The notes under the pieces were generated by a model. The model had not been told where the DNA came from and ran no database searches. It saw only the letters and a program-made list of their open reading frames with translations. Below are positions 23,086 to 53,399 of a DNA stretch of 64,000 bases, in pieces. This DNA is from Pseudopyrenochaeta lycopersici (taxonomy: Eukaryota > Ascomycota > Dothideomycetes > Pleosporales > Pseudopyrenochaetaceae), in the NCBI GenBank assembly GCA_003313425.1, contig NHZP01000006.1:186001-250000 (forward strand), written 5' to 3'. Both the position numbers and the translations under genes were made by a program. Within the stretch, counting starts at the first letter, position 1. The number at the start of each line of letters is the position of its first letter.

Positions 23086-23090
23086 ACGTT

Positions 23091-25183: not shown

Positions 25184-28100
25184 CTTACTTGCTTTCTAAG
25201 CAATTAAACTGCTAAATAACTTAATTATGTATCCCTGCGAGCTTTTTCTATTAATTGTGTTATCTATAAATAAGGCATCGCTTACTACTTTAAGACAGTC
25301 ATCTCTACTAAGCTTAAGGGATCTTAATTTAGTGCTTTAGAGGTAAAGGAGAACTTAGTTAGCTGCTGTATAGTGCTTAGTGCTAGGGTTTATAAGGAAT
25401 CGGGCTAGTCTTAATATTGCAAAGGCGATGTCCAGTTAGGTTGTAACAGCTGCATATAGCAGAGATCTAATCTTACGTTAGTACTTATTAATTTCTAATA
25501 AAGTTACTAGGCCGTCTTAGGGCTTTAGTTTAATAGCTGCTATTAGAGTTTTATATCAGATATCTTTTCTGTTAACTAAGTAGCTAATCTTATCCGCGTA
25601 TGCCGCTTATAATAGCTAGATCTTGCGCTGCTCTTAGTTCCTAATAACTTTAACTCTAAGAAACTATTAAAGATTATCTCTACCTATAATAGAATACTTG
25701 TCTCTAAGATGTTAAATCGCTTATTAGGCTTTAGTCTCCTTCTGCTTACTATATGTAAGAATAATATCGTTAATATAGAAGAATATAATAATTCTATCCT
25801 TAATTAGGTAGTATAGCTTATAAGGGACGTTCTAAAAGCTAAGTTTCTTAAGGGTTAATATAAATTCCTTTTGCTAGAGGAGAGGGGAGATCTAGAGACT
25901 GTATAAAGCCTTATTTACCTAGAGTATTGTTCTAGGCTTTTAGTAGCTATAGGGTATTCTTATATATACTTCTTAATCTATAGTTATGTAGATAAAGGCG
26001 TTCGTAATATTATATTACTTAAGCTCTAGATTATAGTAAGCTGCTACTGCTATTAGTATTTAGAATGAACGGCTAGCGAGAGTAGCTGCGTAAGTGTCTT
26101 GTAAGGTAATATTCCTTTATTAGTTACCTTAGATAACAAGTCGCGCCTTACACTTTAGTAAGTAATAGTTCTTGTCTAGTTTGTAGGTATACACCTATAT
26201 ATAATTAAGGATCTATTATCTTATTAGTTTAATCTTCTTTATTAGCACTTTAGACTATAATTTTATCTTATAATAGCTTTTAAGGTGCTCTTTCTTAGCT
26301 TCCTTAAACTATTTATAGAGAGGATATTTCTTAATTCCTATATAAGAAGTTAGTAGCAGTAGTAACTCGCTTTAATATAGCTTTAATCCTTAGGCTAATA
26401 TTTACTTTATCTAGGCCTTATTAATTATCTTCCTATTATAGGTTCTAACGTGCCCTGCTTAGGTGCCCGCTATAAAGGCTGCTTCCTAAGGAATCGTTTT
26501 TAATAAGCTAGATGTTGTTTAGCTATCTCCTTAATGCTCGCCAGATAATAGTTACGTAAGCAGAGCTACTAGCAGCGGAGTAGTTAGTGGAGAGAAGTAG
26601 GTGTAGTTGATCTTCCTCCCTTAATAGTAACCTAGTTAGTTATCTTGCTAGGTCGTTTCAGAGTCTTAAATAGTGTCGTCTTTATAGAACGTTTAGGTCT
26701 CTGGTTCCTCATAGGTTAGTTCTGGCAGTTCAACTGTCCTTATCTATGCAGCTATCTCGTTTAACATGCTGTGCATAAGGTTATCTATAAGGTCTTCTAT
26801 CTTCCTATTAAATAGTAATTCTTTATTAAACACTATATCTTAAGTGCTAATTACTTTAGCTATAGATAGAATCTAGATTCTGTAGATATTAGAGGATTAG
26901 TATCTAATAAGGTATCCTATCCATACTCTAGGGTTAAGACGTTAGAGTCGTAATTTACCTTGAAGTGTATTATTAGTAAGGGCGAATACCTTATAACTAT
27001 ATACCTTAAGATAGGCTTAATTTAGTTTCTATAGGGAGGTAATTATGCTATCATACAGGGCTGCTATAGTAAAGAAAACTTTGTAGGGTAACTTCTAGGC
27101 GTTTAAGTAGTTTAGCGTTTAATTATATAGGTACACTGCTGCTTATACGATCTCTAGCTATAGTTCCTATAGTAGGTTTGCGTCTAATTATATTATGCGT
27201 AATTTATCTTTTACTACACCCCCTAAGCGTTTAGCTCTACTGTTCTAGGATTAAGTGTATAGGGTAGAGGGCTCTAATTAAATTAAGCGCGCAGTACACT
27301 ATCTTAAAACTTTAGGTTTAGTAGTCGCGATCTCTCTATTACATTTAATAACCTTAACTATAATATTATACTGCTTCTTTAGGAAGCAGACAATAATATC
27401 TAGAAACCTAATAATAGACTTTCTAAGTTAATTATCCTTAAAGTAGAAATCCTACATAAAACTAGAGTACTGATTAGTAACTAGCATCTAACTCTTCTCT
27501 TTTATTAAACTTCCTTCCTTGTACGTGTGGAAGTTAATAGCGAGTCTTTCCTTAGGGCCTTAGTCGTTTACTTAGGGTGTGCGTCTTATCTAGCGTCTAG
27601 TCTTAGCTCTTCTACATACGTTGCATTATACAGTAGTAATTTCTTTAATGCGCCACCCCTCAGATTGTTAGACTAAGTGCTCAATTACTGCTAGTCCTAG
27701 GTGTCCTATTCGCCTATACTACTGCATAGCGTCAGCCTTTTATGCTAATTGCTTAGTGCGGGAGTTAATTGCTTACGTGAAGAAGGCGGCTTCGCCCTTG
27801 TCCTAATGCTTAAGTATCTATTAGCTATGTGCCTCCTTTAGGTGTGTGATTATAGTGTTATCCCGTCTCTTTAGAGTAGTGGGGTCACTCTAGTTGTCCT
27901 ACTACATCCCTTACTGTCTAAGTAGTCTAAAAGAGACTAAATTACACAGGATGTCTGGATACTAGGCTACGTTGCGCAGTTCGAGTTTAGTCAGCCTGTT
28001 TAGTCTAATAAGGTTAAGCAGGACTAATCTATATCCTTGTATCTAGATCTGTGTATTTCTAGCCTAAATACAGTCTACAGCTGTAGGCGGACAGAGGTCT

Positions 28101-29531
28101 TAGACTTAGTTACGATTGTTCGTGATATATATTGTAGATCCTAAGTCTAAAATAAATAAGTGCCTTAGTAGATAGCCTAAAGCTTCTGCTTAAAATAATA
28201 TAGTAGTTAAGGTAGTATTAATTATTAAAATCTTCTATCCTTCTAGTTACTCTGTAGACATTTCGGGTATCTAAGACGTTAACGTTTTAATAGTTAGTGT
28301 TTTTATGCGAGCTCTTTTCCCGCTCCTAAGCTGTTCTTACAGGTCAGCGTTATATTCTAGTTAGTGCCTTACTATTACTGTAATTCCTAAGCGAGGTGTA
28401 AACTACTCTAGTGCTTTATTTGTGTAGACATAGTAATAATTCTCTAGTCTATAGCGTTATTTATAAGCAGAGTATTTTACTCCTTTAGCTGCTGCTGTAT
28501 CTATTATTAGGGACTGCTTAGATATAGTATTTTAACTAAAAGTTTATTTTTAATAAGGTCTTCCCTAACTCCCCTATATAGTTAGAGTAGATAGTGCGCT
28601 ATTAGTAATATAAGAGGCGTCCCTATTAGTACCTAGGGTAGATTTACTACTAGTAGTAAGAAATAAAGTGTTTCCTACAGTAGAGGCGCCCCTCTGCTGC
28701 TTCCCCTTTAAAAGGTGGTACTTACTTATGTATTCTTAGAAGCGTTTTATTATTTCTTTATAAGTTATATTTTATTCTTGCTAACTATAGTCCTAGAATG
28801 TTATTACCTAGGTTAGCGCTATCTTTATAACTAAGTTAAGAAAGTCTTATATAATATCTTATATATTCTGTATTTTAGCGACCCCTTTAGTCTCTGCGTT
28901 TTTTGCGGCGTGGTTATATTCTAAGAGCTAGGTGTCCTAACTCCTAGGCTATCTTATTAGTTTAAGTGCGGCTAGGTATTAGTAACGTGCTCGCAACTAT
29001 TCTTCTTTAGTATCTATTCTAACTGTTTATTTTAGGCTAATAAGCTACGTTTAAATTAGTTTACCTAGCTTACAGCAGTTCTTTATAAGGTAGGGTAATA
29101 CAGATTATTAGATATATACTACTACTTTATCTATATTCGCCCGTTCTTTGCGATAGTCTCTGTCTACTATCTTATATAACTTAAGGCGGAGTTTATAGAA
29201 GTTAGTGTCCTCCTTCCACGCCTTAAGGCTGTTTATTAAGAGCTTAGACAGGGCCTCTAGTTGTAGAGGTACCCTGTTATTATTATTACTAAGCGTTATC
29301 TTTCTCTTATACTTTATAATGTCTAGCTTAGTTAGGATTCTTAGTTTTGTTTTTAGAGGAATATTCTGAGTAGGATCTATCTATTCCTATACGTTAAGGG
29401 AGACGCATCGCGTTTCTAGCTGTTACAGCTATAGCGTATACGTTATGTAGTCTATTAGGATTACGGTTAGTTCTTATATTATTAACAGTGACATTGTTTT
29501 AGAGTGTAATTAAGACAGTAAGACTCTTAAT
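25184..29531 (-). pseudogene. Decayed Ty1/Copia gag-pol, 5' part (gag to RT)
   Basis: The minus-strand reading starts at ATG 29494 (MSLLII, then stops) and can be followed in pieces to 25184. The Copia RT box lies at 25764-25775 and reads YIND in place of YVDD, in the context LTYSKQ typical of Copia. The coding ends exactly at the edge of the Gypsy A LTR, within the start of RNase H. The missing remainder of RNase H lies at 61422-61973 on the plus strand. Translation is littered with TAA and TAG; no domain is intact. Limits of gag and integrase cannot be set precisely by eye. Confidence 0.82.
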
Positions 29532-29752
29532 TATTAGATAGAATGCTTAAATGCGATGAGGTATATTAATAGGTTTTATTTTATTGTATTAATCCTCTCC
29601 GAGTTCTTTTCTATTTTTTGTCCTTTTTATGTAGTGTGTGTGCCAAGTGGTTACACCCGAGCTATGTGCTACAATGCAGTATTGCGTACGCTCGCTGCTG
29701 TGCTATAGATCTAACAGCATACTCTTTCCGGGCACCTATCTTGTATCTGACA
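29532..29752 (-). repeat. 5' LTR of the split Copia element
   Basis: A 221-bp LTR; on the minus strand it begins TGTCAGATACAAG and ends CTATCTAATA. Its partner is 61974-62194, equal in length and about 90% alike by eye. The adjoining plus-strand bases 29753-29757 are AGAGA, the reverse complement of the TCTCT that follows the partner. Confidence 0.9.
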
Positions 29753-30011
29753 AGAGACGTGCCCCTCTAGCTACTAACTTGTACAAGCTTATAAGAAAAG
29801 GGGACAGAGGAGATTAAGGAGTTCGCTCCCCGTGCGATAGTAGCGAAGCCTCTCTTGCTTAAAGGGCGCAGCCTATTATAATTAGTAATATTTTAATAAA
29901 AATATATTATAATACTAAGTTATAAGTATATAGATAATAGATATATTCTTATTAAACTAGTATATTAAGTTTTATATTTATTACTATAATAGTTAGCTTT
30001 TAATCTTAAAA

Positions 30012-30242: not shown

Positions 30243-31393
30243 TAAAAAGTCTTTAATTTTATATACTATTTTTTATTACTTTATTATAAAGTAATAATAA
30301 TATAGTATATATACTTAAAAAAGTTATTATATAAATCCTTTATATAAATTTATATTATATAAAAGTAAATTTTAGTATTCTTTATATAATATAAGCTTTT
30401 ACTCTAAAAGTATTATAAAAGTAGATATAATAATAGCTATAATTTATAATAATATTGTCTTATACTATATATTTATAGTATTAATATATATAATTAACTT
30501 TTAATACTTTAAACTTAAATTATTAAGTTTAATAATATTTTTTTTATTATTATTAAAATCTTTATTAAATAAGTTATTTTAAACTATTATAACTTTATAA
30601 GCTTATACTCTTAAGATCTTTAACTTTAATAATCTCTTATATAGTATATAATAAGTCTAATTCTTTTATTTTATATATATATCTATAATACTTATAAAAG
30701 TATTTAAATAAATAGCTTTTTTAAGCTAAAAGTTAAAAATTAAATAACTTTATAATTATAAGCTTAAACTTTTAATTCTTTTTTTTTTTAATTTTTAGCT
30801 TATAAATAGTAAAATAATATATTAAAGTTTTAAATTAATAGCTATAGTAATTAAAAAGTTAGAGGGGGTGTAGTTTTTCTTAAGCGCGTGCCTCAGGTGG
30901 TGGCGTTCCTCAGGTGGGGCGGTACGTTACAGCCACGCTATACTGAACAGGAAGCTCGACCTCCACGGGAGCCGCATGGTACGATGAAGCAGCATCCCCG
31001 CCTGTCCCTACATGCATGGCTTGAGGATTTAACCAAAATTATCATCGCGTCCGGCTGTGTTATGATATATGATGAATACTTGGCGGGGCGTAAGGCGTTC
31101 CGTTGTAACAAGGAGATCGGTCCGGAGAATAGTGGCAAGAAACTAACCGTTCTTGGAAGGCAGCCCCGCGTTCTGGAGGCACATTGAGCCTCACGTCGTT
31201 TGTACCAAGCAATCGGTATGCTGACAGCAAAAAGACCTCGGCGCAGAATCTTTCACTTGTGCACTGATTGACAGACAACTCCTCTTGAATATCATGGTCT
31301 AGCATGTTCCCCTGGATGTTCATCCTGACAACCATCTAGATCGTCCCACAAGTTGTCTCTAGCGACCTATATGGTCCCTTGAGACGCTTCCAG
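30243..31393. other. A+T-rich tract then gene-flank DNA
   Basis: Positions 30243-30860 are extremely A+T-rich (long TATA and TTTAA runs) with no coding potential; the similar stretch 29880-30011 lies on the other side of the solo LTR. This is probably fully decayed repeat DNA. Composition turns normal at about 30865. From there to 31393 I see only short overlapping frames with no recognisable domain; this should contain the promoter of the ankyrin gene. Confidence 0.5.
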
Positions 31394-33259
31394 ATGTCAG
31401 AACAATTAACCAACGCTTCTGATGACCTATCTCCGCTCGAGAGCAGCGACCTACCCATCCACAAAGCTGCATACAAAGGCGACATCCCATTGCTAGCATC
31501 TCTTGTGCCCCTCTGCGAGGACATCGATATCCGAAGTGCCTGCAACTGTACACCATTGCATCTTGCGATTCGAGGCAACCATGGAGACGCCGTTCAACTG
31601 CTCCTGTCTGCTGGAGCAGATCCCACGCTCCAGGATACCTTAGACACTGCGATGCAACCACCTTTCGATGCCGTAGATCTTGCTGCTTGGCTAGGTGCTC
31701 AGCATGCAATGTCCGCCTTGATTGATGCTGGTCTGGAAATACCAGCCAGTGCATTCGAGCGAAGCGCATCACTGAATCATGTAGAATGCATGCGCATCAT
31801 GTTGAGCAAGCTACCTGACCAGAGGTTTTCCGATCAACCAAAACTTGATGGTGTAAGGTTAGCATTGGGCCGGGCGGCAATCTGCTGGCATTTGGAAGCA
31901 GTAGAATTTATTCTCACCCAAGTGCGCGGATTTCCAGACGAAACTAAGCCTGAAGATCGAACTGCCCTAGGTATTGGCGTTGCCCTTGCCGTTGACCTAG
32001 AATATATCTGCGTCGATGATTGTCGTTGGAGCACCATAGCAAACCCCAAACGGTTGCCGATTATACTAGAAAAGCTAGTAGCATCTGGTGCTGATGTGAA
32101 TGCCGAACATCCTGCAACTGGGAATAGTGGTTTTTGGACAGTTGTTGAAGATCAAGACCTCACGCGATTCTTTCTGGGACATGGCTTGCGCCAAGAAAGC
32201 CAGACCAAGGGAGGTCATACTCCCATATTTGGTATCGTTTATAGCGTCAACACTGAGCCTACCCTCTTAGAGGCCTTTATAGCCGCTGGAGCAGATGTCA
32301 ACCATAAAGATCGAGCGCTTCGAACACCTTTACACTATACCGCGAACCGAGCTCTTGCCGAAATACTTTACCAGCATGGCGCGGATCTTTCTGCGAAGGA
32401 CAAGGATGGCTTGACGCCGCTTCACTCGGCTTGCAAGAACGGACGTCTGGATGTCATTCGATACCTGATATCGATGGGCGCGGCAATCGATGAGCCTGCC
32501 TCATGTGGATACACACCGCTACTTTACAGTCTTAGCAATGAAGAGGACGATTTCGAAGATTGCTCTTTCCCACTCCACCCTTCGGCAGAACAATGCCCAA
32601 GCATTGAAGTCACACGAATACTACTGGCACATGGAGCGAATGTTCATGCAGCTACAGCCAGTGGCCAGACAGCACTGCACGGTGCTGCCCGTATCGGTGA
32701 CATTGAGCTTGTTCGTTCTCTTGTCGATGTTGGTGCAAATTTTCGAGCTGGAAACGCAAAGGGCGAAACAACCCTTCACGTCGCAGCACGTACAGCCAGC
32801 GTCCAGACCGTGCAGTATCTCATGGAGGAAGGCGCGGACGTTCATGCCGTAACTTCATCTGGCCAATCTGTAATGCATGCAGCGTGCTCTTCGGGTACTA
32901 TAACAACATTGCCTGCCATCACCATCATCTTGGAAATGCTACTCGAAGCAGGAGTCGATGTCAATGCCAAGGACATCACAGGCGCAACACCATTACATGT
33001 TCTGTACAACCAGTGCTACAGATCCCGCTTGTGTGATACAAAGGCCCTCAACATGCTTCTACGAAGAGGCGCCGATAAAATGGCCGAAGACAAGGAAGGT
33101 GAGAGCGTCAATGATCTCGTTGAGAAGGACGACATTTGGACTTGGGATGAAGAAGGGCTGCTGGAGAGGACTAAAATTTCTACTGGGTATGGGACCTGGC
33201 GCGGTGTTAGGGGCCGAGGAAGTTGGATAAGAGGCCGTGGTGGTACGAGGGGTCACTGA
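31394..33259 (+). CDS. Ankyrin-repeat protein with Arg/Gly-rich C-terminus
   Basis: Single-exon frame of 621 residues from ATG 31394 to TGA 33257-33259. Ankyrin repeats run over most of the length, clearest at DLPIHKAAYKGD (near residue 20), TPLHLAIRGNHGD, TPLHYTANRALAE, TPLHSACKNGRLD, TALHGAARIGDIE, TTLHVAARTASVQ and ATPLHVLYNQ. No enzymatic domain, signal peptide or membrane segment is visible. The last 25 residues are rich in Arg and Gly (RGVRGRGSWIRGRGG), unusual for an ankyrin protein and reminiscent of RGG RNA-binding tails. Ankyrin stacks serve as protein-binding scaffolds; the partner is unknown. The next gene, 260 bp downstream on the same strand, encodes a HET-NACHT-ankyrin protein, so a shared role in recognition is possible. 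An upstream TTG in frame is not a likely start. Confidence 0.85.
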   Translation: MSEQLTNASDDLSPLESSDLPIHKAAYKGDIPLLASLVPLCEDIDIRSACNCTPLHLAIRGNHGDAVQLLLSAGADPTLQDTLDTAMQPPFDAVDLAAWLGAQHAMSALIDAGLEIPASAFERSASLNHVECMRIMLSKLPDQRFSDQPKLDGVRLALGRAAICWHLEAVEFILTQVRGFPDETKPEDRTALGIGVALAVDLEYICVDDCRWSTIANPKRLPIILEKLVASGADVNAEHPATGNSGFWTVVEDQDLTRFFLGHGLRQESQTKGGHTPIFGIVYSVNTEPTLLEAFIAAGADVNHKDRALRTPLHYTANRALAEILYQHGADLSAKDKDGLTPLHSACKNGRLDVIRYLISMGAAIDEPASCGYTPLLYSLSNEEDDFEDCSFPLHPSAEQCPSIEVTRILLAHGANVHAATASGQTALHGAARIGDIELVRSLVDVGANFRAGNAKGETTLHVAARTASVQTVQYLMEEGADVHAVTSSGQSVMHAACSSGTITTLPAITIILEMLLEAGVDVNAKDITGATPLHVLYNQCYRSRLCDTKALNMLLRRGADKMAEDKEGESVNDLVEKDDIWTWDEEGLLERTKISTGYGTWRGVRGRGSWIRGRGGTRGH

Positions 33260-33519
33260 TCTGGGAAGATCAGATTCGACGAAGGGACAGTTGGAACAAT
33301 GAGCGTCGATCGAGGTCTGATTTAACACGTGAGAATGATACAGCACCCATGTATGGGAAGATGACACGGCATCAGGGATGGTCTACTGTGCTGGGTGAGG
33401 GGAGCAGGAATCAAATCTCACATTAATGACCATTTTCGGTAAGTGCGGAATTGCCCGTATACATAGCATTTCGACACCAGTTGCCCATACAAGAGACAGA
33501 CTTGTTATCTGCCACGTGA

Positions 33520-36165: not shown

Positions 36166-36360
36166 AAGGGTTGGGGAAGGAAGATACCGTTCTCTTTAGC
36201 AAAAATGAATGAACATACCACCGCAGTGAAGCTCCTGCTTGAGGTGGATGATTCATATGTTGACTTTGAGGGTCAGAGGCTGCGGACACAGGTATTGAGA
36301 GCCGTTGTTGGTGAAAATGAGATGGCGGTGAACCATCTACGACTAGAGAACTACTCTTGA
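36166..36360 (+). pseudogene. Ankyrin remnant beyond the premature stop
   Basis: The frame of the upstream NLR gene continues for 64 codons after TGA 36163-36165, with recognisable ankyrin text (PFSLAKMNEHTTAVKLLLE), and ends at TGA 36358-36360. TGG-to-TGA would explain the interrupting codon. This shows that the 881-residue frame is C-terminally truncated relative to its ancestor. Confidence 0.65.
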
Positions 36361-39270: not shown

Positions 39271-39457
39271 TCCACCCATAAATGCACATATCAAATGAAG
39301 CATAGACAAAGTACATAGTTTCTTACAGAGACAATGCGTCTCACTGTCTCATTGTCTGTTGCTCAATCTAACGGATATAGGTAAAGTAGGTCCTCTGGGT
39401 ATCATACGCTCTGTCCACCGCTCCCAAACGCCTCAATGCACGCTCCTCAATGCACGC

Positions 39458-41725: not shown

Positions 41726-42455
41726 TTCGTCCAGGGTTGCGGACAACAAAGTATAAAAAGAGCAAGAGTTAGGAAATGTACTCGAGACTAGAGACCGACA
41801 TGACGAAGTACGGGGTCGGGAGTTGGGTTGTGCGCGATGGCACTCAGGTAACCATGTGGTCATTCAGAGGATTCATCGTTCTGACGTCACCGCCCATTTA
41901 GGCGTCTTCCGCACCCCAAAAGAGACAGACTCGAGATTTTAGCCCCAGGACAGAAGCAATATGGCACACACACATCCGCGCTGTTGGTTGAAGACATGTT
42001 TAAGAGGGGTAAGATGCTTGCATGTGCCTGTTGATCTCCCACGCCCGTTGTTCAAGGGCTCCCATGGGGACGGTGATGACGTAAGACTCCGCTCGGTTTG
42101 ATTGGCTGGTGGGCTGTTATTCGTCCAGCCTTACCTTGTACATCACAGTTGCTATTTGGTTCCTCGTTCTCGAAAGCAGTTTATTATTATGTTTACGGTT
42201 CTCGGTGCTTTGTATCTGAAGCACTTGGGTATCCAGAGCGATAGTCACCTACATATTCCTAATTGCCTTTGTTCCATCCCATCGCATGCTTTCTTAACTA
42301 GAGATAGGTCAACTCTGCTCACTCCAACATCCGGTTGGCAGTCATCTCAAACGACCCAGGCTGCAGATTGGCCATCTTTTGCACCGCCCTAGTGGGCAAA
42401 CCCCATCTCCCTCAGTCCTCTTAATCGCCATCAATCGACCTGTGGAGAAACAAAT
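41726..42455. other. Intergenic region between two minus-strand genes
   Basis: About 730 bp holding the likely promoter of the membrane-protein gene (right of 41725) and the 3' flank of the copper ATPase gene. A plus-strand frame at 42102-42392 has no recognisable domain and is rejected. Confidence 0.5.
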
Positions 42456-45400
42456 TTAGATACGCGACCACCTCAACAACACCGCCGCAAGAATTACAGG
42501 CAGTACACTAACTAATTCTCCTAGTCCAGCAAACTCTGGTGGGATCCGTGCACGCACGAATGCACCTGCGCCTAGTAAGACGGCGAACAGGTTGTAGACG
42601 AAACTCCATCCAAAGTTGAACGCGACCCTGTGCATCGCTTTTTTGCTGATAGCGATGATTGTTAAGACGCTCGACAGGTTTGGACGTACGAGAACAATGT
42701 CGGCAGCGGATTGAGCAATATCCGTACCACTGGACATGTGGACCCCAATAGTGGCTTGAGCAAGAGCGACAGCGTCGTTGGTGCCATCGCCTACAAACAT
42801 GACGATCGGCTTACGTTGCTTTGACTTCGAGGTGAGTGAAGGCGAAGCGGCAAGTAGGTCCTTGATATAAGCCTGTTTGCCTCCCGGCGAGCAGCGTGAC
42901 CGCACGTTGCTATTCGGAATGTCGAGCTGAGATGCAATACTTCGAACAGCCCCGTCGTCATCTCCAGATAAGATATGAACATTCAATCCATGCTGCTGAA
43001 GTTGTGAGACTGTGGATAGCGCCTCAGGCCGAAGTGTGTCTTGGAGCCCGAATACGGCGACTAGAGCATCGTCGACAGTGAAACAGAATGCCGTCAGGCC
43101 TTGCGATAGCATTGACTGGACTTTCGCATTGGATTCCAACTCGAGCCATCTCGAGTTGCCAGCGCGAAGTATTTTCCCTTCATAATTTCCTTCCACACCC
43201 TTTCCAGGAAGTGCTTTCGCTTCTTGCACCATCGATGCAACAACATCTCGTGCATTAAGATGGGCAGCAACTGCTACGGATACTGGGTGCTTGATGTTGG
43301 CCAACAGGCCCAGCAGGAGTGACCCTGGGCTTTTGTTCTCGTCTTGAAAGTATTCTTCGTCCACGACCATCAATCGCCCAGCAGTCAATGTTCCAGTTTT
43401 GTCGAACACTACATCCGTCGTTTTATATGCCACCTCAATACTGTTTGCTGACTTGAATATTACACCTCTTCTTGCCGCGACGCCTGATGCTACGACAATC
43501 ACCATTGGAACTGCGAGCCCTATAGCACAAGGGCAGGAGACTATCAAAACGGTGATCGCATACGTGATGGCCTCAATCGCTGCCTCGGATCCAGACTGTT
43601 TCCGCACAGCAATTCCAACCGCGATCCAAATAACGAAAGTGATAATGGTGAGAGCGACGACAACTGGAACAAAATAGCTAGCTACTTTGTCGGCAATATC
43701 CTGGATTTTAGGCTTGGAAAGCTTCGCTTCATCAACCATACATGCTATAGTGGTGATGGTGTTGTCGCCAGGTAGGCGTGTCAATCGAACAGTAAGCATC
43801 CCGCTTCCATTGATGGAGCCTGCAATAACGGTGGAGCCAACTTGTTTCTCCAGGGGTTTAGACTCGCCAGTAAGCATTGACTCATCTATCTCAGAAGAGC
43901 CATGGATGACTGTACCATCGGTTGGGATGCGCGAGTCTGGTGCGACCTTGAAAACATCGCCATATTGCAAAAGCCTCGCATCAATATCTTTTTCAACTTG
44001 GTCTTCTCGGACCAAAATCGCTGTTGGTGTCTGCAATGAGCGGATGGAAATAGACTCTGCAGCTTTCTGGCGAGCGAGCGAAGCAACCCAGCGCCCAACC
44101 ATGATGAGTGTCACAAGCAACGTGCTTGTCTCGAAAAACTCACCAGTTGAGAGCGGGTGGCCAGCGACCATATAACCGAACGACACGACCGAGAAAATGT
44201 AAGCAGCGCTGGTGCTAAGCACGATGAGAAGGTCCATCTCGATCACCCTGGAAAAGACCAATGCCTTGATTGCTTTCGGGTAGAATGGGCCAGCAATGAC
44301 TACTTGTACAATGGTAGCCAGTGCAAGTGAGGCGGAGCCATATGCAATCTCTCGTTCCGGAAGCGGTGCCCATGCCATAACCAGAACCGGAATGGTGAGC
44401 GCTGCCGACAGTAAAGTCATCCATCCCATATGTCGAACATGTCTATTGCCAGCATCAAGGCTAGGGTCGGGGCGCGGTGGTGCAAGCTTTAGCGATCTAC
44501 TCCAGTCCTGCTCGAGCAGATCTCTTGCTCCGACCACCTTCGCATCGAAATCGACTCGTATTGTCTCCTTGTCCACCCGACGGACATCCAGCACACCATC
44601 CGGCCATTCGCCCTTGATGAAGCTCGTCGGCTCGCTGGAGCAGATGAGGTCAAGGCTAGAGCCTTGTGCCGAGATCTGCTCACACTTGAATTCGGTCGTT
44701 CGCTGGAGGTGCTTGATGACGTCTTCCGCAGTTGCAGCGCCTTGGGTGATGTCAAACTCTGCGCGTGCCAAAACCAGGCTGGTTTTCAGGCTGCTGACAT
44801 ATTGGAGTGTTCCCAGTGTCCGCTTCAACTTTGTCTCACACCCGGTACAAGTCATTCCGGAAATGCTAAGAATAATATGCTCCCTTCCTGTACCACCCTT
44901 CTCGAGGTCAACGAGGTCTGAGCCACTCGAGATAGACTCAATTGTATCGACAGTGGTACCCTTCTTGTTATCACTGCAACAGCCTGTCGTACCTGTGTTG
45001 TCGGAGCAACAGCCCGTCGCTTTCGCTCCAGGGTTGCATGTCGTTGATGTAGTAGCACTGCAAGGCGATTTGACATCACCGCCGATTACATCGCCATCAG
45101 TTTCATCCTGGGCACAACAGTCGTCGGCACAAGAGTTGCTCGAAATGCTTTGCGCACTGCTGGCACAGCAACTTGATTTGAGCTCCGCCCCATTACCGCA
45201 TTGCTTGTTCTTTGGTGTGGAGGTAGCAGGAGCCCGATCGGATGAGCAACAGCCGCGCCCCGACGATGTGTATTGCAAGGGTGTTGCGGTGGTCTTCGCT
45301 ACAAGTGGGTCTGGTGAAGCACAGCAAGAGCCTGATGTGCTCGCTTTCGTTGGTTTAGCTTCCACTGTAGAACAGCATGTCTTTTGGCACTCCGTATTGC

Positions 45401-45695
45401 TAGGCGTTAGATCTTGTTGTATCGGCGTTGTTTCATTCGGTCCGCAACAACTCTCTGCGCAGTCGTCTGAGTCGCTGTCTGTGTCTGTCAACGGCGGGTC
45501 GCAGTTGTTTGTATCCTTAGAAGGCGGCTCGCAGCAGTCACTCATTCCTGTTGCTTTGTTTTGTTCGATACTTGTCGAAGCCGACGACGATGTTGACGCG
45601 GGAATAGTCTCCGCAGTAACATCTTTGGTGTCTTTCTGGTTTCTAGCGTCGCCTGTCGCATTGCTCGATCCACAGCAGCCCCCTCCGCAGGCCAT
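42456..45695 (-). CDS. Copper-exporting P1B-type ATPase with Cys-rich N-terminus (CrpA-like)
   Basis: Intronless frame of 1079 residues from ATG 45695 (MACGGGCCGSS); an upstream in-frame ATG at 45746 would add a hydrophobic leader and is less likely. The first 260 residues hold ten Cys-Cys pairs (GGGCCG, SDCCEP, ESCCGP, KTCCST, GSCCAS, RGCCSS, SSCCAS, DDCCAQ and TGCCSDN twice), a metallothionein-like copper buffer. One heavy-metal-associated domain follows (GMTCTGC, about 280-286). Core P-type ATPase motifs are intact: TGES (609-612), the CPC copper motif (721-723), the phosphorylation site DKTGT (765-769), the His-Pro dipeptide (His803) and GDGTND (969-974). The protein should pump Cu(I) out of the cytosol using ATP. 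The architecture matches copper-tolerance pumps such as Aspergillus CrpA rather than the Golgi Ccc2 type. The gene name is inferred from architecture only. Confidence 0.93.
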   Translation of the reverse strand: MACGGGCCGSSNATGDARNQKDTKDVTAETIPASTSSSASTSIEQNKATGMSDCCEPPSKDTNNCDPPLTDTDSDSDDCAESCCGPNETTPIQQDLTPSNTECQKTCCSTVEAKPTKASTSGSCCASPDPLVAKTTATPLQYTSSGRGCCSSDRAPATSTPKNKQCGNGAELKSSCCASSAQSISSNSCADDCCAQDETDGDVIGGDVKSPCSATTSTTCNPGAKATGCCSDNTGTTGCCSDNKKGTTVDTIESISSGSDLVDLEKGGTGREHIILSISGMTCTGCETKLKRTLGTLQYVSSLKTSLVLARAEFDITQGAATAEDVIKHLQRTTEFKCEQISAQGSSLDLICSSEPTSFIKGEWPDGVLDVRRVDKETIRVDFDAKVVGARDLLEQDWSRSLKLAPPRPDPSLDAGNRHVRHMGWMTLLSAALTIPVLVMAWAPLPEREIAYGSASLALATIVQVVIAGPFYPKAIKALVFSRVIEMDLLIVLSTSAAYIFSVVSFGYMVAGHPLSTGEFFETSTLLVTLIMVGRWVASLARQKAAESISIRSLQTPTAILVREDQVEKDIDARLLQYGDVFKVAPDSRIPTDGTVIHGSSEIDESMLTGESKPLEKQVGSTVIAGSINGSGMLTVRLTRLPGDNTITTIACMVDEAKLSKPKIQDIADKVASYFVPVVVALTIITFVIWIAVGIAVRKQSGSEAAIEAITYAITVLIVSCPCAIGLAVPMVIVVASGVAARRGVIFKSANSIEVAYKTTDVVFDKTGTLTAGRLMVVDEEYFQDENKSPGSLLLGLLANIKHPVSVAVAAHLNARDVVASMVQEAKALPGKGVEGNYEGKILRAGNSRWLELESNAKVQSMLSQGLTAFCFTVDDALVAVFGLQDTLRPEALSTVSQLQQHGLNVHILSGDDDGAVRSIASQLDIPNSNVRSRCSPGGKQAYIKDLLAASPSLTSKSKQRKPIVMFVGDGTNDAVALAQATIGVHMSSGTDIAQSAADIVLVRPNLSSVLTIIAISKKAMHRVAFNFGWSFVYNLFAVLLGAGAFVRARIPPEFAGLGELVSVLPVILAAVLLRWSRI

Positions 45696-46283
45696 AATGG
45701 AAAATGTGAATAAAAAAAGGACGTGGCAACAGAAAAACCTTGTCAAAGGCCAATACGCACTTCAGTATGCTATTTGAGAGAATAGATATGGGCTGGTTTA
45801 AATTGTAGCGGTCAAGGTGGTCGATCTCAAATCGATATGTCACCGCTTTCACGCTTGGCATTTTTCAATTGAAGGCCCAGCCAACTCGCATGCAGGAGAC
45901 TATAAGAAAGATGTTACAATAGCATTACTCTTTGCGTAACACATCTGAACAATCGCGCATCGTAGAGCAGCTAGGTTTCGTTTTTTGCGTTGCTTGATGT
46001 TGAACCTTCCAAATGCGGAAGCTTTCAACACAGTGTGGATTGCAGTGCTGCGCTGGCAATGTTAGAGTCTTTGCGACGTTGCGCGCAATCATATGTATAC
46101 TTGAATTGTTATCGCACTGTAAGCAATAAGACCATATTCCGCTGAGAGGCTCTCGGCAGCCGATATGGGTTTAATTGGTCACTATCAATATCAGGGCAAA
46201 AGAAATATCCAAATCGAACTGAAGTACAAGTTAAACGTGCCATCGGGGTGACAGATCACTTTGCGGCTGATTACCGTGTCTTA
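45696..46283. other. Promoter-side spacer of the copper ATPase
   Basis: About 590 bp upstream of the ATPase start, ending at the TA of the DNA-transposon remnant. I looked for recognisable copper-factor sites and found none I could defend. Confidence 0.5.
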
Positions 46284-46879
46284 CCAGTGGGTGACCAACG
46301 CCAGTGAGTGGTGAGACCCAAAAGCCACCTAAAGTCGTAGAAACAGATCCTCAGTCTCACAATAACTTACTATTACATCTTGAAAGTTCATTTATGGTCG
46401 TCTACTTTTATTTAGTAGCTTCCATTATATCCTTACTCTCATAACTTCTAGTGTTCTCTAGCGATCGAGTTTGAGCTTTTAAGTCTAACATCATGTACAA
46501 GCGAGGCGTCCGCCACACCAACTTTGCTATTGTCTCAGCCTGAATTTGAGTGTGATTAACGGATGAGATAGTTAGCTGTATATAGGCCTCATTTGAGAGC
46601 GATTGGGGTTGTTTTGGTCGAGGCATGGTCGATTCAAGTTCACAAGGTGATCAAATTCTGTGGAGTGGACGCCTCGCTTGAACATGACATTATGCGATTT
46701 CACTGGTTTAGAAGGTTTAAAATTTTGATCGTTCTATAAGTATGAAATATAGCGAGTTTTAGAAAGCCATAAAATACCTTCAAAGATGTAATAATAGGTG
46801 GTTGTTGTTAAGTTTATGAGGGCCTGTTTTCTTGGGTTTTGGTGGTTTTTGTCCACTGACTGGTGTGCTCACTGACTGG
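46284..46879 (-). mobile_element. Internally deleted Tc1/pogo-like DNA transposon (596 bp)
   Basis: Imperfect terminal inverted repeats of about 50 bp: the left end starts CCAGTGGGTGACC and the right end finishes GCTCACTGACTGG. Both are flanked by TA (46282-46283 and 46880-46881), the target duplicated by Tc1/mariner/pogo elements. Within each end the motif CCAGTGRGTG or its relative occurs twice. The interior encodes only the N-terminal fragment of a transposase (46408-46626, minus). The size and structure fit a non-autonomous deletion derivative of a Fot1/pogo family member. Confidence 0.75.
46408..46626 (-). pseudogene. N-terminal fragment of pogo/Fot1-type transposase
   Basis: A 72-codon frame starting at a true ATG (46626), MPRPKQPQSLSNEAYIQL..., with the layout of a psq-type helix-turn-helix seen at the start of fungal pogo-family transposases (a Pro/Lys-rich start, then a helix pattern including QIQAETIAKLV). 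The catalytic DDE domain is absent, and the text after about residue 40 loses resemblance, so it is a remnant. The family assignment is by pattern memory only. Confidence 0.5.
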
Positions 46880-47423
46880 TAAAACGCACTATGATCGATG
46901 GTTTGCGAAACTTGCCCGATACGGCAGGTATGGCTGACACTGCTGATTAGCATCCTGGCCCAGTATTTTGACCACCTTCCAGTTTACTATGATGCGTGAC
47001 AGAATTGTTATGACGCGATTCGCTCTACTGGCCTTCGATGATGTACAACCTGTGATTTCGACTCACATCAGCAAATATTCGCTGCCGAAATTGCCGGCCA
47101 GACTCAGAGGGAATATCGGTTGGTGCAGCTTCGAAAGCAGCTTCCTGGGGTACGCGTTTGCGCTAGGGCGAAAGCTGATGTTCGCTTCGTATAAGTCCAT
47201 GGGATTCGCGCCATGAGCGCTTCTAAAACCTAAGATTACAATTTGTTTCAAGTTGTTTCGTGACTGCAAGACATGATTCATGCGGCACTGATCCTACAGA
47301 TACCCTGCACAGCCATATCTCACACCACGGCTGAATACACATCTGGGGCTTGACGGCTGTTCTTTCAAAGATCTTTCCCGCAATATTTTGAACAGCCATC
47401 GGAGTCGTAACACGAGAGTTGTC
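46880..47423. other. Intergenic region upstream of the HET gene
   Basis: About 540 bp. A plus-strand frame at 46968-47216 (82 codons) starts with an ATG-less or weak start and has no recognisable domain. This stretch should hold the HET gene promoter. Confidence 0.5.
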
Positions 47424-49654
47424 ATGTTCCGAGACCCTTGGCGCGATTGGAGGAAAACAAGATTACGCGTGGCGGCTAAAGTTGGTGTCAGCATCTTAGC
47501 CAAACTCTGGATACGGTCGAAGCGGCTTCGAACGCTCAGAAGTGAGTTGTTTGTCTTATGTTATGATGCTGGCTTGCTGATCTAACAGCGGCGTACCTCC
47601 AACGACGTCTTACGCTCAAGACGCGGAAGTACCAACCACTTCGCAGAGGAGAAATTCGCCTACTTCAAATCAGACCGGGCCATGCGTTGAGCACGATTGA
47701 GTGCGAGTTCTCTTATGCAGACTTGAGCTCTCCTACACACTATGCTGCTTTGTCCTACACCTGGGGTCAAATTGCTCCCTCGATTCCTATTAAAGTCAAT
47801 GGCCATGTCTCGCTCATCTCGGAAAATTTATACCTGGCATTGGTACATCTCCGGAAGAGAGACGTCCTCACACTCTGGGTGGACGCACTTTGCATCAATC
47901 AGGACGACAATGCAGAACGCGCGACTCAGGTCAGTCAAATGAATTACGTGTACCAGCAGGCGGCCTTCGTGTACATATGGCTTGGGGATAGCAACTACCT
48001 CAGCCAGCAAGCCTTTCATGAACTCCATCAACTAAGGAAGCTCTTGGAATGGGATGGCACAATACCTGAGCACCATTTCAGTCCAGCTGCAATGAATCAG
48101 CATCAAAAGTGGAGAGCGATAAGTGAAATCCTCTACCGGCCTTGGTTCCGTCGTGTGTGGGTTATCCAAGAAGCACTATTTGCTCAACGAGCCATGCTGG
48201 TTTGTGGTGAAAGCATTCTTGATCTAAAGCACTTTCTGCAAATAGTCGACTCTATGTTAGGATATAAAGTTTTCAAGGAGGTATTGTCGCATCATCCCAA
48301 TAGGCAGGAGCTGATAGCAGGACCTATGCAAGCGACCCTCAAACAAGTAGAGTTCCTGGTGCAAGCTAAAGTAGCAGAGACCAGGTTTTCCCTTTTCATT
48401 CAGTTTAAAGGGACTCTCTTGGACTATTTAGCCGAGACGCGCTGGGCTGAAGCCACAGATCCGCGGGACAAGGTTTACGGTATACTCAATTTGGTGAAAG
48501 ACGCCTCAAAGCTAGGCCATTACCATACGAAGACGGGTGAGCCTCTCAAATGGTGCCCATTCAAGGTTGACTACACACTACCCAAAGAAGTGGTCTTCAC
48601 CAATGCCTCCAAGGCAATTATATGGACCACACGCTCTCTAGACACCCTCCAATTTGTTAGGCATGACCCGGGTCGTGCGACTGGACTTCCATCGTGGGTG
48701 CCAGACTGGACGAACGAGACACCACACTTAGTTCCGGATTATATTTCGCTATGCTCTAAGTTTGCCAAAGAACAACATCACTGGCGCCCGAGCAGACGTA
48801 AATCCGATGAGCTGTGCGAGACGGATTCTATCCATGATCGAATCACTGCATATTGTCGGCCAGTTTTCGCGTTCCAGGAAGACATACTGTCAGTTCATGG
48901 CATTTACTTTGATACCATCACTGCTCTTTCCCAATATACACATCCACGCGAGCATAATATGTACACAATTGATCCAGCAATCGAAGATGATCATCGAAGA
49001 TTTGAGCTTATGCAGGAGCATCTGGACCTGATGGTCCCCTGGACCAAGGAATGCGTTCAAATTGCCACGGGGTGTTCGCCATATCCGACTGGCCATAGCA
49101 CCTGGTCTCTCCTACGAAGACTACTACACAAAGATGCTACCCTGGAGGACGACTCAATGGTAGAAGATAGCGAGACTCTGCTCGAAGACTGGAGCAGACT
49201 TGAGTCAGCTCTTGCAGCAATGCGGAAGCATGTAGCACTGGAGAACTCAGGCGCTTTGGCCGAAATAGCAGTTGCACAAGCACTTGCACAATTTGGGTAC
49301 CGTTCATATCAGTTGAAGATTGACGGAACAAACTTCTCTCAACGATTCGCCTCGACAGGGAATCGGTATATGGGACTCGTGCCAAAGGGTACAATGATTG
49401 GCGATCTCGTCTGCTTCATCTACGGACAGGAGTTACCACTTGTCTTACGAAGCTGCGCCGATGAATGCTTCATTTTCATCGGTCACGGCAAATTCGCTGG
49501 TGTGGACTTCGACAGTGTCGTTGTAGAGCGAACCTATTCTCCTAAACGAAGACAAAAGGAACCAGAAACTGAACGTCACTTCATTTCTCGTACTGCTAGT
49601 GGGCACAAAACATGCACAGTGCTTAAAGATCCGACTCCATTTTGTCTAGTATGA
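47424..49654 (+). CDS. HET-domain protein
   Basis: Two exons (47424-47541, 47589-49654) separated by a 47-nt intron (GTGAGT ... AACAG) give 727 residues. After splicing, the typical HET entry KYQPLRRGEIRLLQIRPG lies just before YAALSYTWG (residues 91-99). WVDALCINQ (136-144), the YVYQQAAFVYIWLGD segment and FRRVWVIQE follow in order, so the HET domain is complete. The C-terminal 400 residues have no recognisable domain but include the motif GLPSWVPDWT common in this protein class, and a late segment YMGLVPKGTMIGDLVCFIYG that also recurs in HET proteins. HET proteins mediate heterokaryon incompatibility and induced cell death when matched with an unlike partner. No damage is seen. Start ATG 47424 fits the splice phase; no better upstream ATG exists. 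Confidence 0.9.
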
Positions 49655-49712
49655 ATCTTGTTCGTTCAAGGCATCCGCTCTGCGAGTCTCGCATGCGTCT
49701 CGGCCCATCAAA

Positions 49713-49952
49713 TGTACTATTTTAACGTGCCCCACTGCGTAGCGAGACACACAGTGTGGCGAGACAAATAAGGGGTACTTTAACTTTTAATAACTAGAAA
49801 ACCTATACGCGTAAAGAATACTACTATAATTTAATAAAAATAATCTACTATAGCTAATCCTAAATATCTATATTCTACTCTTTCCTAAAAAGTACCTTTA
49901 TATTATTATCTCGAAGCCTAATTTAAATAGCGCCTTCTTTTATAGTGTAACA
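49713..49952 (-). repeat. Putative LTR, minus orientation, left of the F-box/ankyrin gene
   Basis: About 240 bp; on the minus strand it begins TGTTACACTATAAAAG and may end at ATAGTACA (49713). The bases before it on the minus strand (GGGAGGGTAGTC) resemble a polypurine tract. Its first 125 bp recur, inverted, at 53275-53399. The outer end is my best estimate. Confidence 0.6.
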
Positions 49953-50919
49953 GACTACCCTCCCTATAGCGCTAATATTAAGTCTTTATTACTCTAAATT
50001 TTTATAGAATAGCCTTATCTAAGCCTTAGAACCTCCTTCTAATACTTAGAAGCTATTATTAGCTTAGTACGCGCTGTCGGAGGCAAATTTATACAGGGCT
50101 ACTATATTAATTAGTACTTCTATAGAAGTAAATCCCTAATTCTAGCTAATACAAGATAGCCTTGCACTTCTTAGCTTATATATCTGTAGGTAAGATATAT
50201 AGCTATGTAAATCGCACGTGCGCTTAGAATATAATTAAGCTTAGCTTAGGATTAGGAGTAGTACTAAGACTTATATAGCTATAGTACTTATTAGTTAGCT
50301 AATATACTTCTAGTATTAAAGTAGCTTTAATATAGTTTAATATATAATAACTTTAATAGCTTTCTTACTCTTAAGCTCTAAAACTAACTATTACTCTTTT
50401 ACTAACTAAATAAAAAGCTTTTAATTTTAGCTTATAAAAAAAAATATAATTATAAAATAAGATAAAGTAAAATAGCTTTAGTAGTAATATAGCTGTTATA
50501 TAAGTACTATAATTTTTTAAAGTTATAAAAATATACTTTACTTTAATATATAAAAGATATAAAAGGTTTAAATTATTTATATTTATAATATATAGTAAAG
50601 CTATAATAGTAGCTATACTTAGTAAAGTACTGTACTATCTAAGGCTTTATACTATTCTATTACTAGAAATAATAGTTATATCTCTTCTTAATACTATTTA
50701 TTCTAGACGTTTACTATAAGGGTGCAGCTAGAGTAGGTTAGCTACTCTTCCTGCTACTAGTAGTAATATCAAGAGTTAAATTATCTTTAGTGCTGGTCGA
50801 TCCTACTTTTTAAACGTGCTTACTTAGCTACCCTGCAGCTACCTGCCCCACTATCGTCCTCAACTCGTTCCTTTTGGGTATACTTCGTAAACACCTGCCA
50901 ACTAAATGCTACTTTGGCA
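49953..50919. other. RIP-like A+T-rich interior and promoter of the F-box/ankyrin gene
   Basis: Positions 49953-50720 are TpA-rich decayed repeat interior with no coding text that I can follow. Segment 50721-50763 recurs inverted at 53202-53243. From about 50764 composition becomes normal and leads to the gene start at 50920. Confidence 0.55.
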
Positions 50920-52848
50920 ATGTCGCTGCTTGATCTAGCGAACGAGTTGCTCCAATGCATATCAGAAAACCTAGAATTAGAGAGAGATATCAACGCCTTT
51001 GCACAAGCCAACCGCCGCCTCTACCGTCTGCTAAATAACTACCTCTACTGCCACAACATACAACAGTCTGGAAGCTTAGCGTTATTATGGGCTGCCCGAC
51101 ATGGCCAAGAGGCGGCGGTTCGAAGGCTTCTAGGAGAAGGAGCCAATGCCCAAGCTATATATATCTGCAATCAGACGCCGCTGTTGTTGGCGGCAGAGAA
51201 GGGGCATACGGAGGTGGTAAAGCTGCTGCTCGACAAGGGTGCCGACGATAACGCGAATGGTGGAAGGGACGGCAGCGCACTCCAGGCGGCTTCAGAAGGA
51301 GGCCACGAGCAGGCAGTGAAGATGCTGCTTGACAAAGGCGCCGACGTCAACGCGCAGGGTGGATTCTACAGCAACGCTCTCCAGGCAGCTTCAAAGGGAG
51401 GCCACGAGCAGGTAGTAAATATGCTGCTTGACAAGGGCGCCGACGTCAACGCGCAGGGTGGATTCTACGGCAACGCACTCCAGGCGGCTTCACATGGAGG
51501 CCACGAGCAGATTGTGAAGCTGCTGCTCAACCAGGGCGCCGACGTCAACACCCAGGGTGAACTCTACAGCAACGCACTCCAGGCGGCTTCACATGGAGGC
51601 CACGAGCAGATTGTGAAGCTGCTGCTCAACCAGGGCGCCGACGTCAACGTGCATGGTGGGAAGGACGGCAACGCACTCCAGGCGGCTTCAAAGGGAGGCC
51701 ACGAGCAGGTAGTGAAGTTGCTGCTTGACAAGGGCGCCGACGTCAACGCTCAGGGTGGAACCTGCGGCAACGCACTCCAGGCGGCTTCACATGGAGGCCA
51801 TGAGCAGGCAGTGAAGATGCTGCTTGACAAGGGCGCCGACGTCAACGCGCAGGGTGGATACTACGGCAACGCTCTCCAGGCAGCTTCAGAAGGAGGCCAC
51901 GAGCAGGTAGTGAAGATGCTGCTCAACCAAGGCGCCGATGTTAACGCGCAGGGTGGATCCTACTTCAACGCACTCCAGGCGGCTTCATCAAGAGGGTACG
52001 AGCAGATTGTGAAGCTGCTGTTAGACGAGAGTGCCGACGTCAACGCTCAGGGTGGATTCTACAGCAACGCTCTCCAGGCAGCTTCGGCAAGAGGCCACGA
52101 GCAGGTAGTGAAGTTGCTGCTTAATAAGGGCGTCGACGTCAACGCGCAGGGTGGATTCTACAGCAACGCTCTCCAGGCAGCTTCATCTGAGGGCCTTAAG
52201 CAGGTGGTGAAGCTGCTGCTTGACAAGGGTGCCGACGTGAACGCCCAGGGTGGATACTACGGCAACGCTCTCCAGGCGGCTTCAGCAAGAGGCCACGAGC
52301 AGGTAGTGAAGTTGCTGCTTAACAAGGGCGCCGACGTCAACGCTCAGGGTGGATACTACGACAGCGCACTCCAGGCGGCTTCACATGGAGGCCATGAGCA
52401 GGCAGTGAAGATGCTGCTTGACAAGGGCGCCGACGTCAACGCGCAGGGTGGATCCTGCGGCAGCGCACTCCAGGCGGCTTCAAAGGGAGGCCACGAGCAG
52501 GTGGTGAAATTGCTGCTTGACAAGGGCGCCGACGTCAACGCGCAGGGTGGATCCTGCGGCAACGCACTCCAGGCGGCTTCATCAAGAGGGTACGAGCAGA
52601 TTGTGAAGCTGCTGTTAGACGAGAGCGCCGACGTCAACGCTCAGGGTGGATACTACAGCAACGCTCTCCAGGCAGCTTCGGCAAGAGGCCACGAGCAGGT
52701 AGTGAAGTTGCTGCTTAATAAGGGCGCCGACGTTAACGTGCAGGGTGGATACTACGGCAGCGCACTCCAGGCGGCTTCATTAAGAGGCCACGAGCAGATT
52801 GTGAAGCTGCTGTTAGACGAGAGCGCCGACGTCAACGCGCAGGGTTAA
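50920..52848 (+). CDS. F-box-like / ankyrin protein with 16 near-identical repeats
   Basis: Intronless frame of 642 residues from ATG 50920 to TAA 52846-52848. The first 45 residues (LLDLANELLQCISENLE, then RDINAFAQANRRLYRLL) resemble an F-box, suggesting a link to SCF ubiquitin ligases. Two divergent ankyrin repeats follow, then a tandem array of 33-residue units with the core ALQAASxGGHEQVVKLLL. Fifteen full units and one of 29 residues end the protein. The array stops mid-unit at AQG, where every other unit continues with GG, so the C-terminus may be a truncation. The gene keeps normal composition although decayed, RIP-affected repeats lie on both sides. The ankyrin face would bind a target protein, but which one cannot be told. 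F-box recognition is tentative; ankyrin is certain. Confidence 0.88.
   Translation: MSLLDLANELLQCISENLELERDINAFAQANRRLYRLLNNYLYCHNIQQSGSLALLWAARHGQEAAVRRLLGEGANAQAIYICNQTPLLLAAEKGHTEVVKLLLDKGADDNANGGRDGSALQAASEGGHEQAVKMLLDKGADVNAQGGFYSNALQAASKGGHEQVVNMLLDKGADVNAQGGFYGNALQAASHGGHEQIVKLLLNQGADVNTQGELYSNALQAASHGGHEQIVKLLLNQGADVNVHGGKDGNALQAASKGGHEQVVKLLLDKGADVNAQGGTCGNALQAASHGGHEQAVKMLLDKGADVNAQGGYYGNALQAASEGGHEQVVKMLLNQGADVNAQGGSYFNALQAASSRGYEQIVKLLLDESADVNAQGGFYSNALQAASARGHEQVVKLLLNKGVDVNAQGGFYSNALQAASSEGLKQVVKLLLDKGADVNAQGGYYGNALQAASARGHEQVVKLLLNKGADVNAQGGYYDSALQAASHGGHEQAVKMLLDKGADVNAQGGSCGSALQAASKGGHEQVVKLLLDKGADVNAQGGSCGNALQAASSRGYEQIVKLLLDESADVNAQGGYYSNALQAASARGHEQVVKLLLNKGADVNVQGGYYGSALQAASLRGHEQIVKLLLDESADVNAQG
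51274..52845 (+). repeat. 99-bp tandem coding repeat array (16 units)
   Basis: Units start every 99 bp from 51274, each beginning with the codons for (S/N)ALQAAS; the last is shortened to 87 bp. Units 8-9 closely resemble units 14-15, and units 12-13 resemble units 6 and 5, pointing to block duplication of several units rather than one-by-one growth. Confidence 0.93.
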
Positions 52849-53201
52849 AGTGGAGGCGAATGACAACAGTATAGGTCTGTTTGAGTCGCAGCATCCATGG
52901 ACGCTCTCTAGTATATACGCTCACCTTTACTTTTAAGTCATAACAGCGCAACGCGAAAGCTATATTACTAATACAATCTTACTCCTAGTTTAGAATAAAT
53001 CCTTAGCCTATATTTTGCTAGCACAACTGCCTTTGCATATAAATTAGACTTTGTAGTATAAGGAAAATACCTAGGACGTTAATACTAATTCTTCTAGAAA
53101 GATGTTAAAAAACTAGTACTAGCATAGAACAAGTTGTAATACATAAGCATATAACAAGGTGTATATATCACGATAACAAAGGTAGAGTAGTACAGTATAT
53201 C
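52849..53201. other. Gene 3' flank grading into TpA-rich DNA
   Basis: About 350 bp after the ankyrin gene. The first 100 bp look normal; the rest becomes A+T-rich. No gene or RNA recognised. Confidence 0.5.
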
Positions 53202-53243
53202 GCTACTAGTAGCAGAGAGAGTAGCTAACCTGCTCTAGCTGCA
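53202..53243. repeat. Inverted copy of 50721-50763
   Basis: The sequence around GTAGCTAACCTGCTCTAGCTGC is the reverse complement, with a few mismatches, of 50721-50763. Together with the LTR-like pair it forms the arms around the F-box/ankyrin gene. Confidence 0.7.
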
Positions 53244-53274
53244 TATAATACTAATATTTAGATTTATAATACTT

Positions 53275-53399
53275 TGTTACACTATAAAAGAAGGCGCTAT
53301 ATAAATCTAGCCTAGAGGCGATAATATAATTATAACTTTTAGGAAAGAGTATATTATAGATATTTAGGATTAGCTATAGTAAATTATTTTTATTAAATT
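53275..53399 (+). repeat. Truncated LTR copy, inverted relative to 49713-49952
   Basis: 125 bp starting TGTTACACTATAAAAG, aligning to the first half of the 49713-49952 repeat read on the minus strand. It is cut off exactly at the start of Gypsy B, so the right half has been lost. Confidence 0.72.

Follow-up and report, generated by a model that had tools for sequence, protein, structure and literature searches.

Inverted, chimeric transposon copies with exchanged target-site duplications (TSDs) are a recognised signature of transposon-mediated inversion, as set out for Galileo in Drosophila buzzatii in the accessible part of the report (PMC2775673). Transposon-linked rearrangements are also known in fungi, as far as the available text of two papers goes (PMC4971763, PMC5576322). 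For Verticillium dahliae, the accessible text states that 8 of 12 rearrangements reconstructed in detail lie over highly similar transposons (PMC4971763), and for the Podospora long terminal repeat (LTR) element crapaud that 7 of 150 full copies have disparate ends (PMC10787394). Here we describe a 64-kb stretch of the Pseudopyrenochaeta lycopersici genome (contig C6, positions 186001–250000; hereafter the window), in which two Gypsy-type LTR retrotransposons, copies A and B, lie in opposite orientation on either side of a gene island. We propose that this island was probably inverted by crossover between the two copies, after both had been altered by repeat-induced point mutation (RIP), and that the exchange left a conversion tract. 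All genome-wide searches were made in the 62.7-Mb, 188-contig assembly.

Two inverted Gypsy copies share one divided insertion scar

The two copies and their flanks are arranged as follows.

10144–25183, + strand: Gypsy copy A, 8.0 kb of Gypsy sequence with element X nested in it; a chimera if the inversion model holds
53400–61421, − strand: Gypsy copy B; likewise a chimera if the inversion model holds
10139–10143, + strand: 5′ flank of A, GCCCC; mate not found
25184–25188, + strand: 3′ flank of A, CTTAC, the reverse complement of GTAAG at 61422–61426
53395–53399, + strand: flank at the 3′ end of B, AAATT (AATTT on the − strand), within a terminal inverted repeat (TIR)
61422–61426, + strand: flank at the 5′ end of B, GTAAG
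16049–23085, strand not assigned: element X, an LTR element nested in A, with TSD ACGTT at 16044–16048 and 23086–23090

An earlier interpretation of the window, made from the letters alone (the sequence-only reading), held that A (+) and B (−) belong to one family in inverted orientation. We agree: their arms pair as inverted repeats, paired LTRs (TG..CA) are found at both ends of A and of B, and the family makes 5-bp scars. A is 15 kb long because element X is nested inside it. LTRs and scars fit a Ty3/Gypsy-type element, and B contains an RVT_1 fragment at 56758–57012 (E 6.5e-8; one of six pieces had a Pfam match below 0.001). For the coding region, 279 stops were reported in a single frame, and its domain order is unreadable.

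Read directly, the flanks are GCCCC...CTTAC for A and AAATT...GTAAG for B, i.e., GTAAG stands to the right of B but not to its left, and CTTAC to the right of A, just as had been pointed out before. One 5-bp insertion scar is hence divided between the two copies. Flipping restores GTAAG on both sides of B, also as claimed; A is then left with GCCCC/AATTT, an unmatched pair of which the sequence-only reading made no mention. By our own arithmetic, a chance match has a probability of about 1/1024 per flank pair, and the Gypsy scar is one of six such pairs.

To place this divided scar, we compared the flanks of 38 other family copies, located by their central part. One copy near a contig end (on C76) was omitted; both predicted ends were retrieved for the remaining 37, and in 14 of these at least one end was unreadable by the motif used. 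Exactly matching scars were present in 21 of the 23 other copies with both ends readable, so the family makes 5-bp scars and mismatched copies are uncommon (two of 23, at C39:10300 and C27:161440). Two mismatched copies that lie 28 kb apart and have traded one scar are what recombination predicts.

A Gypsy copy with mismatched flanks on C39 (7651 region) and one on C2 (2267211 region), the scars of which do match, share 20 identical bases on the 5′ side. The pair is a candidate duplication or a second ectopic recombinant.

A single Copia-type insertion lies in two pieces

To the right of each Gypsy copy lies one part of a second LTR element.

25184–29752, − strand: 5′ part of a Copia-type element, 4569 bp; 5′ LTR at about 29536–29752
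61422–62194, + strand: 3′ part of the same element, 773 bp; 3′ LTR at about 61974–62194
29753–29757, + strand: outer TSD on the 5′ side, AGAGA (TCTCT on the − strand)
62195–62199, + strand: outer TSD on the 3′ side, TCTCT

The Copia halves derive from a single insertion. Their LTRs (29536–29752 and 61974–62190) are 94% identical, and in the flipped frame the outer flanks read TCTCT on both sides. In another copy, on contig C60 (locus L002), bases 1497–2272 align to 62194–61421 and bases 2267–3212 to 25184–26129 of the window; the two pieces adjoin there and overlap only by the 5-bp scar and one base. The joint was read across in this one locus. Moreover, flipping gives a virtual LTR spacing of 5116 bp, and 10 of the 11 paired copies outside a cluster on contig C38 have spacings of 5116–5121 bp, the eleventh 5068 bp. 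This set comprises 14 intervals between neighbouring same-strand LTR matches less than 8 kb apart, including three in the C38 cluster (4266, 4266 and 5426 bp). We calculate a chance probability of about 1/1024 for the Copia scar, and the halves are contiguous to within the 5-bp scar in about 5.3 kb.

The pieces were compared separately, without joining them beforehand, and flipping restores order, length and outer scar, which bears out the claim that it joins two Copia halves. An origin of the halves from different insertions was tested, and scars, C60 copy and spacing showed the opposite. It is therefore extremely improbable that the block was never inverted, with the 5-mer match and the broken state of the Copia halves arising by coincidence from separate insertions and truncations: mismatched flanks do occur in two of 23 other Gypsy copies, but the Copia outer scar, the contiguity, the spacing and the identical tract described below all agree with each other.

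LTRs and 5-bp scar fit a Copia-type element; five short open pieces gave no Pfam match that would fit Copia polymerase or RNase H, and an RNase H-like reading near 61430 was made by eye only. At C38:244668–253796, Copia LTR matches follow each other at 4266-bp spacing, three in a row, which looks like a tandem duplication; each of them lies 377 bp from a Gypsy LTR end, and these ends have the same flank.

A long identical tract marks the likely exchange site

Recombination between A and B implies a zone of exchange within them, and such a zone was found.

12754–15354, + strand: identical tract in A, 2601 bp, 100% identical to 56211–58811; probable crossover or conversion zone, left breakpoint
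56211–58811, − strand: identical tract in B, right breakpoint; contains the RVT_1 fragment

We aligned A and B as two separate segments. The left one has 185 differences in 5905 columns, all outside a 2601-bp identical run; the second-longest identical run is 108 bp, and the difference rate outside the tract is 5.6%. The right segment, 93.8% identical, contains gaps and 129 differences over 2093 columns, and its longest run is 87 bp. At the outside rate, an identical run of 2601 bp has a probability of about 10^-65, assuming evenly spread differences. Among 40 of 109 candidates scored over the tract, i.e., A, B and 38 others, A and B are 100% identical to each other and the 38 others show 92–95% identity. 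As a control we compared the first 1.8 kb of 24 copies, a different part of the element from the tract. The set comprised A, B and 22 of 28 other loci, the remaining six being too short or dissimilar. The longest identical run in the 276 pairs was 257 bp, at 92–96% identity, and for the A–B pair it was 108 bp.

RIP favours the CpA/TpG context. Transitions make up 182 of the 185 differences in the left segment and 126 of the 129 in the right; 116 of the 182 left-segment transitions lie in CpA/TpG context and 66 in other contexts. The tract itself is strongly RIP-like in composition (TpA/ApT 2.05, (CpA+TpG)/(ApC+GpT) 0.28, GC 32%; the same measures for the gene island are 0.68, 1.32 and 50%). 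A and B were therefore made alike after RIP.

From these alignments we consider the 2601-bp tract the likely site of crossover or conversion. An older inversion between A and B, followed by a separate non-crossover conversion that produced the tract, is very unlikely. No sequence feature ties the tract to a crossover, and conversion between fungal LTR copies has been inferred for Podospora crapaud in the accessible text of that study (PMC10787394). Two events would, however, be needed between the same two copies, A and B share no second run above 108 bp, and the position of the tract, between the split scar ends, is the one required of a crossover tract.

Proposed course of the inversion

Taken together, the split scar, the single Copia insertion and the tract support the earlier claim of recombination between inverted copies after both had inserted. 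The ancestral order would have been unique DNA, Gypsy copy A′ (+), the island in the other orientation, the 5′ part of Copia, Gypsy copy B′ within Copia, and the 3′ part of Copia. Both A′ and B′ would have been RIP-mutated before the exchange. One copy may then have broken in its middle and been repaired by homologous recombination with crossover, the inverted other copy serving as template. Such a crossover would flip the 41–46 kb between the exchange points, make both Gypsy copies chimeric, divide the GTAAG scar and Copia between the two ends and leave the 2601-bp conversion tract in both copies. We infer that tract and inversion were one event, that it took place in the organism rather than in the assembler, and that it followed this break-repair route.

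The sequence-only reading was probably right about an inverted block; its limits of 25184–53399 (28 kb) have to be moved, the breakpoints lying inside the Gypsy copies and most likely in the tract. Since the likely crossover site is the identical tract, the flipped unit measures 41–46 kb, most likely at least 15355–56210 (40.9 kb) and at most 12754–58811 (46.1 kb). With a crossover in the tract, it would include the 3′ portion of each Gypsy copy, and element X, if already present at the time, would have been moved from B′ into A.

Evidence that weighs against the inversion

Several observations speak against this account. A tract with zero differences between linked, RIP-mutated repeats is also expected from a collapsed assembly node. 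As already stated with the sequence-only reading, a misassembly would yield the same picture. The order in the organism would then be un-flipped, and the assembler would have passed the wrong way round the loop formed by the inverted repeats, through the 2.6-kb identical stretch. We regard such a misjoin as unlikely. Contigs reach up to 2.5 Mb, and the matching scars in 21 of 23 readable copies make misjoins at this Gypsy family look rare. Over the first 1.8 kb, the 24 control copies (92–96% identical pairwise) stay distinct, the longest shared run being 257 bp, so there is no general collapse of this repeat; also, reads of more than about 4 kb should be able to separate copies with 5.6–6.2% divergence outside the 2.6 kb.

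The flanks of A pose a second difficulty for an inversion by crossover between A′ and B′. A clean inversion between two copies predicts a matching scar for A′, and its flanks after flipping are GCCCC/AATTT. Moreover, AATTT lies within a TIR, the outer part of which would be expected at the other end of A and is absent there.

49718–53399, strand not assigned: TIR-bounded interval, DNA-transposon-like family; right TIR ends at 53399 at the Gypsy end

We searched the genome for mates of both flanks with patterns allowing up to three mismatches, so that LTR ends carrying more mutations would be missed. There were 33 matches for GCCCC directly after the 3′ LTR end and 60 for AATTT directly before the 5′ LTR start; the best had one mismatch in either case, and neither search found an exact mate. 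The best match to the second pattern, GATTT on C53, belongs to a copy with a matching scar of its own. An outer TIR joined to an LTR was not found at 15 junctions read, all of which continue into the inner TIR. These 15 were taken from the best 40 of 56 places as reaching the junction without a listed inner TIR neighbour; some of the other 25 are partial and stop short. The unique DNA to the left of A occurs once in the genome. A′ must hence have undergone an earlier rearrangement. The exactness of both its LTR ends points to recombination involving a further Gypsy copy, possibly with a deletion; our favoured guess is a deletion between two direct Gypsy copies. We also considered conversion of GCCCC to AATTT by RIP and rejected it, as a transversion would be required at the second base.

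The LTRs contribute weak evidence. No site supports the present pairing, two support the pre-inversion pairing, and three group 5′ with 5′ and 3′ with 3′ LTRs; the alleles shared at the two pre-inversion sites also occur among 54 other LTRs (identical sequences merged), one in 3 of them and the other in 21. The original B′ pair, B5–A3, differs at 7/301 positions and the present pairs at 13/301 and 14/302, but A5–B5 (6/302) is as close as B5–A3, and the original pair A5–B3 is the most divergent of all six (16/302). Finally, a conspecific HET protein that could have pointed to a comparison isolate was absent from the best 120 of 3385 relatives of the island's HET gene, the closest of which is 52% identical; these relatives come from fungi such as Lindgomyces and Lophiotrema, both of the Pleosporales.

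Genes of the probably flipped block and neighbouring features

Gene content was assigned with Pfam at E 0.001.

30881–49717: gene island without RIP-like composition
31340–33259: ankyrin open reading frame (ORF; Pfam)
33520–36165: NPHP3_N (NACHT-like)/ankyrin ORF (Pfam)
37822–39270: LCCL ORF (Pfam)
39458–41863: ORF without Pfam match
42456–45761: PCA1-type P-type ATPase ORF (Pfam)
47567–49654: HET ORF (Pfam)
50791–52848: ankyrin ORF (Pfam)

Of the genes named in the sequence-only reading, HET, NACHT/ankyrin (as NPHP3_N/ankyrin), LCCL and copper-ATPase (as PCA1-type P-type ATPase) were recovered; its F-box was not, as no F-box model matched at this threshold. HET and NACHT/ankyrin genes are of types linked to self/non-self recognition in fungi.

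The ankyrin ORF at 50791–52848 consists of about eighteen 99-bp repeats (GC 56–59%) between the TIRs. The TIR family has many copies in the genome, several of them paired 4–11 kb apart. The segment 50920–51180 of this ORF has 16 genome matches including the window's own, of which two on C28 may be one gene. The idea that ankyrin genes are cargo of the TIR family was dropped: beyond the window's own, no match to the segment lay in a TIR pair definable among the matches listed.

To the left of A, an ORF at 8126–8884 has a Tle1-like (DUF2235) catalytic domain (PF09994). At the other edge, 63746–63999 shows 74% direct similarity to 17393–17646 in the interior of element X, and a related element may extend past the window. 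A 152-bp inverted repeat (62324–62475 and 62692–62843; 86%, 216 bp apart) may be a small foldback element or one resembling a miniature inverted-repeat transposable element. Rfam at gathering scores gave no match within the 64-kb window.

Timing and consequences

The 2601 bp have gained no difference since the exchange, which means that it happened recently or that RIP has ceased to act; the second is in keeping with other data. A genome search with RVT_2 gave at least 152 matches (150 of 284 candidates scored), many of them intact frames with equal scores: at least 16 frames without a stop score 129 bits and at least 12 score 130.8, and other matches hold stops. The equal scores suggest identical young Copia-type copies. 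With intact RVT_2 frames beside heavily RIP-mutated families, RIP may have lapsed in this lineage.

Crossover-linked meiotic conversion tracts measure 432 bp in Zymoseptoria, 284 bp in Neurospora and 1841 bp in yeast, according to the available text of one study (PMC10294615), and mitotic tracts in yeast have a median of 10.6 kb in that of another (PMC3616911). A length of 2.6 kb falls between meiotic and mitotic values and does not discriminate.

One genome without relatives suffices here to reconstruct much of the chronology (Copia insertion, Gypsy insertion, RIP, recombination) and places the probable exchange within 2.6 kb. The locus is a concrete test case for whether RIP divergence guards fungal genomes against rearrangement between dispersed repeats; if this account is correct, it did not do so here. 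The flipped block carries HET and NACHT/ankyrin genes, and its orientation could affect linkage there. More speculatively, and in our view doubtfully, RIP-mutated, AT-rich retrotransposons may still be live crossover substrates after about 6% divergence, RIP having seemingly lapsed, and the island may flip recurrently. It might then be polymorphic in orientation among nuclei or isolates.

Comparison with described systems

A pair of RIP-mutated LTR elements combining exchanged scars with a conversion tract was not evident in the literature searched, the coverage of which mostly excluded subscription journals. The comparisons below follow the accessible text of each report. The locus resembles Galileo in its opposite-orientation copies at the inversion ends and, under the inversion model, in exchanged TSDs, chimeric copies and ectopic recombination (PMC2775673). 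Galileo, in contrast, is a transposon with long TIRs, described by comparison with a non-inverted chromosome, whereas here a RIP-mutated LTR retrotransposon is read from a single genome; moreover, one of two scars is matched here, and a long identical tract is added. V. dahliae shares with our case the filamentous fungal setting and rearrangement at transposons, but its rearrangements come from strain comparison, and the available text does not describe exchanged scars or conversion tracts (PMC4971763). Like the present Gypsy family, crapaud is a fungal LTR element under RIP with signs of conversion or ectopic recombination; there, however, exchange is at the level of LTRs, and the sections available describe no chromosomal inversion (PMC10787394). 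The mechanism, ectopic recombination with exchanged TSDs, is thus already known; of greater interest is that the exchange would have followed RIP mutation.

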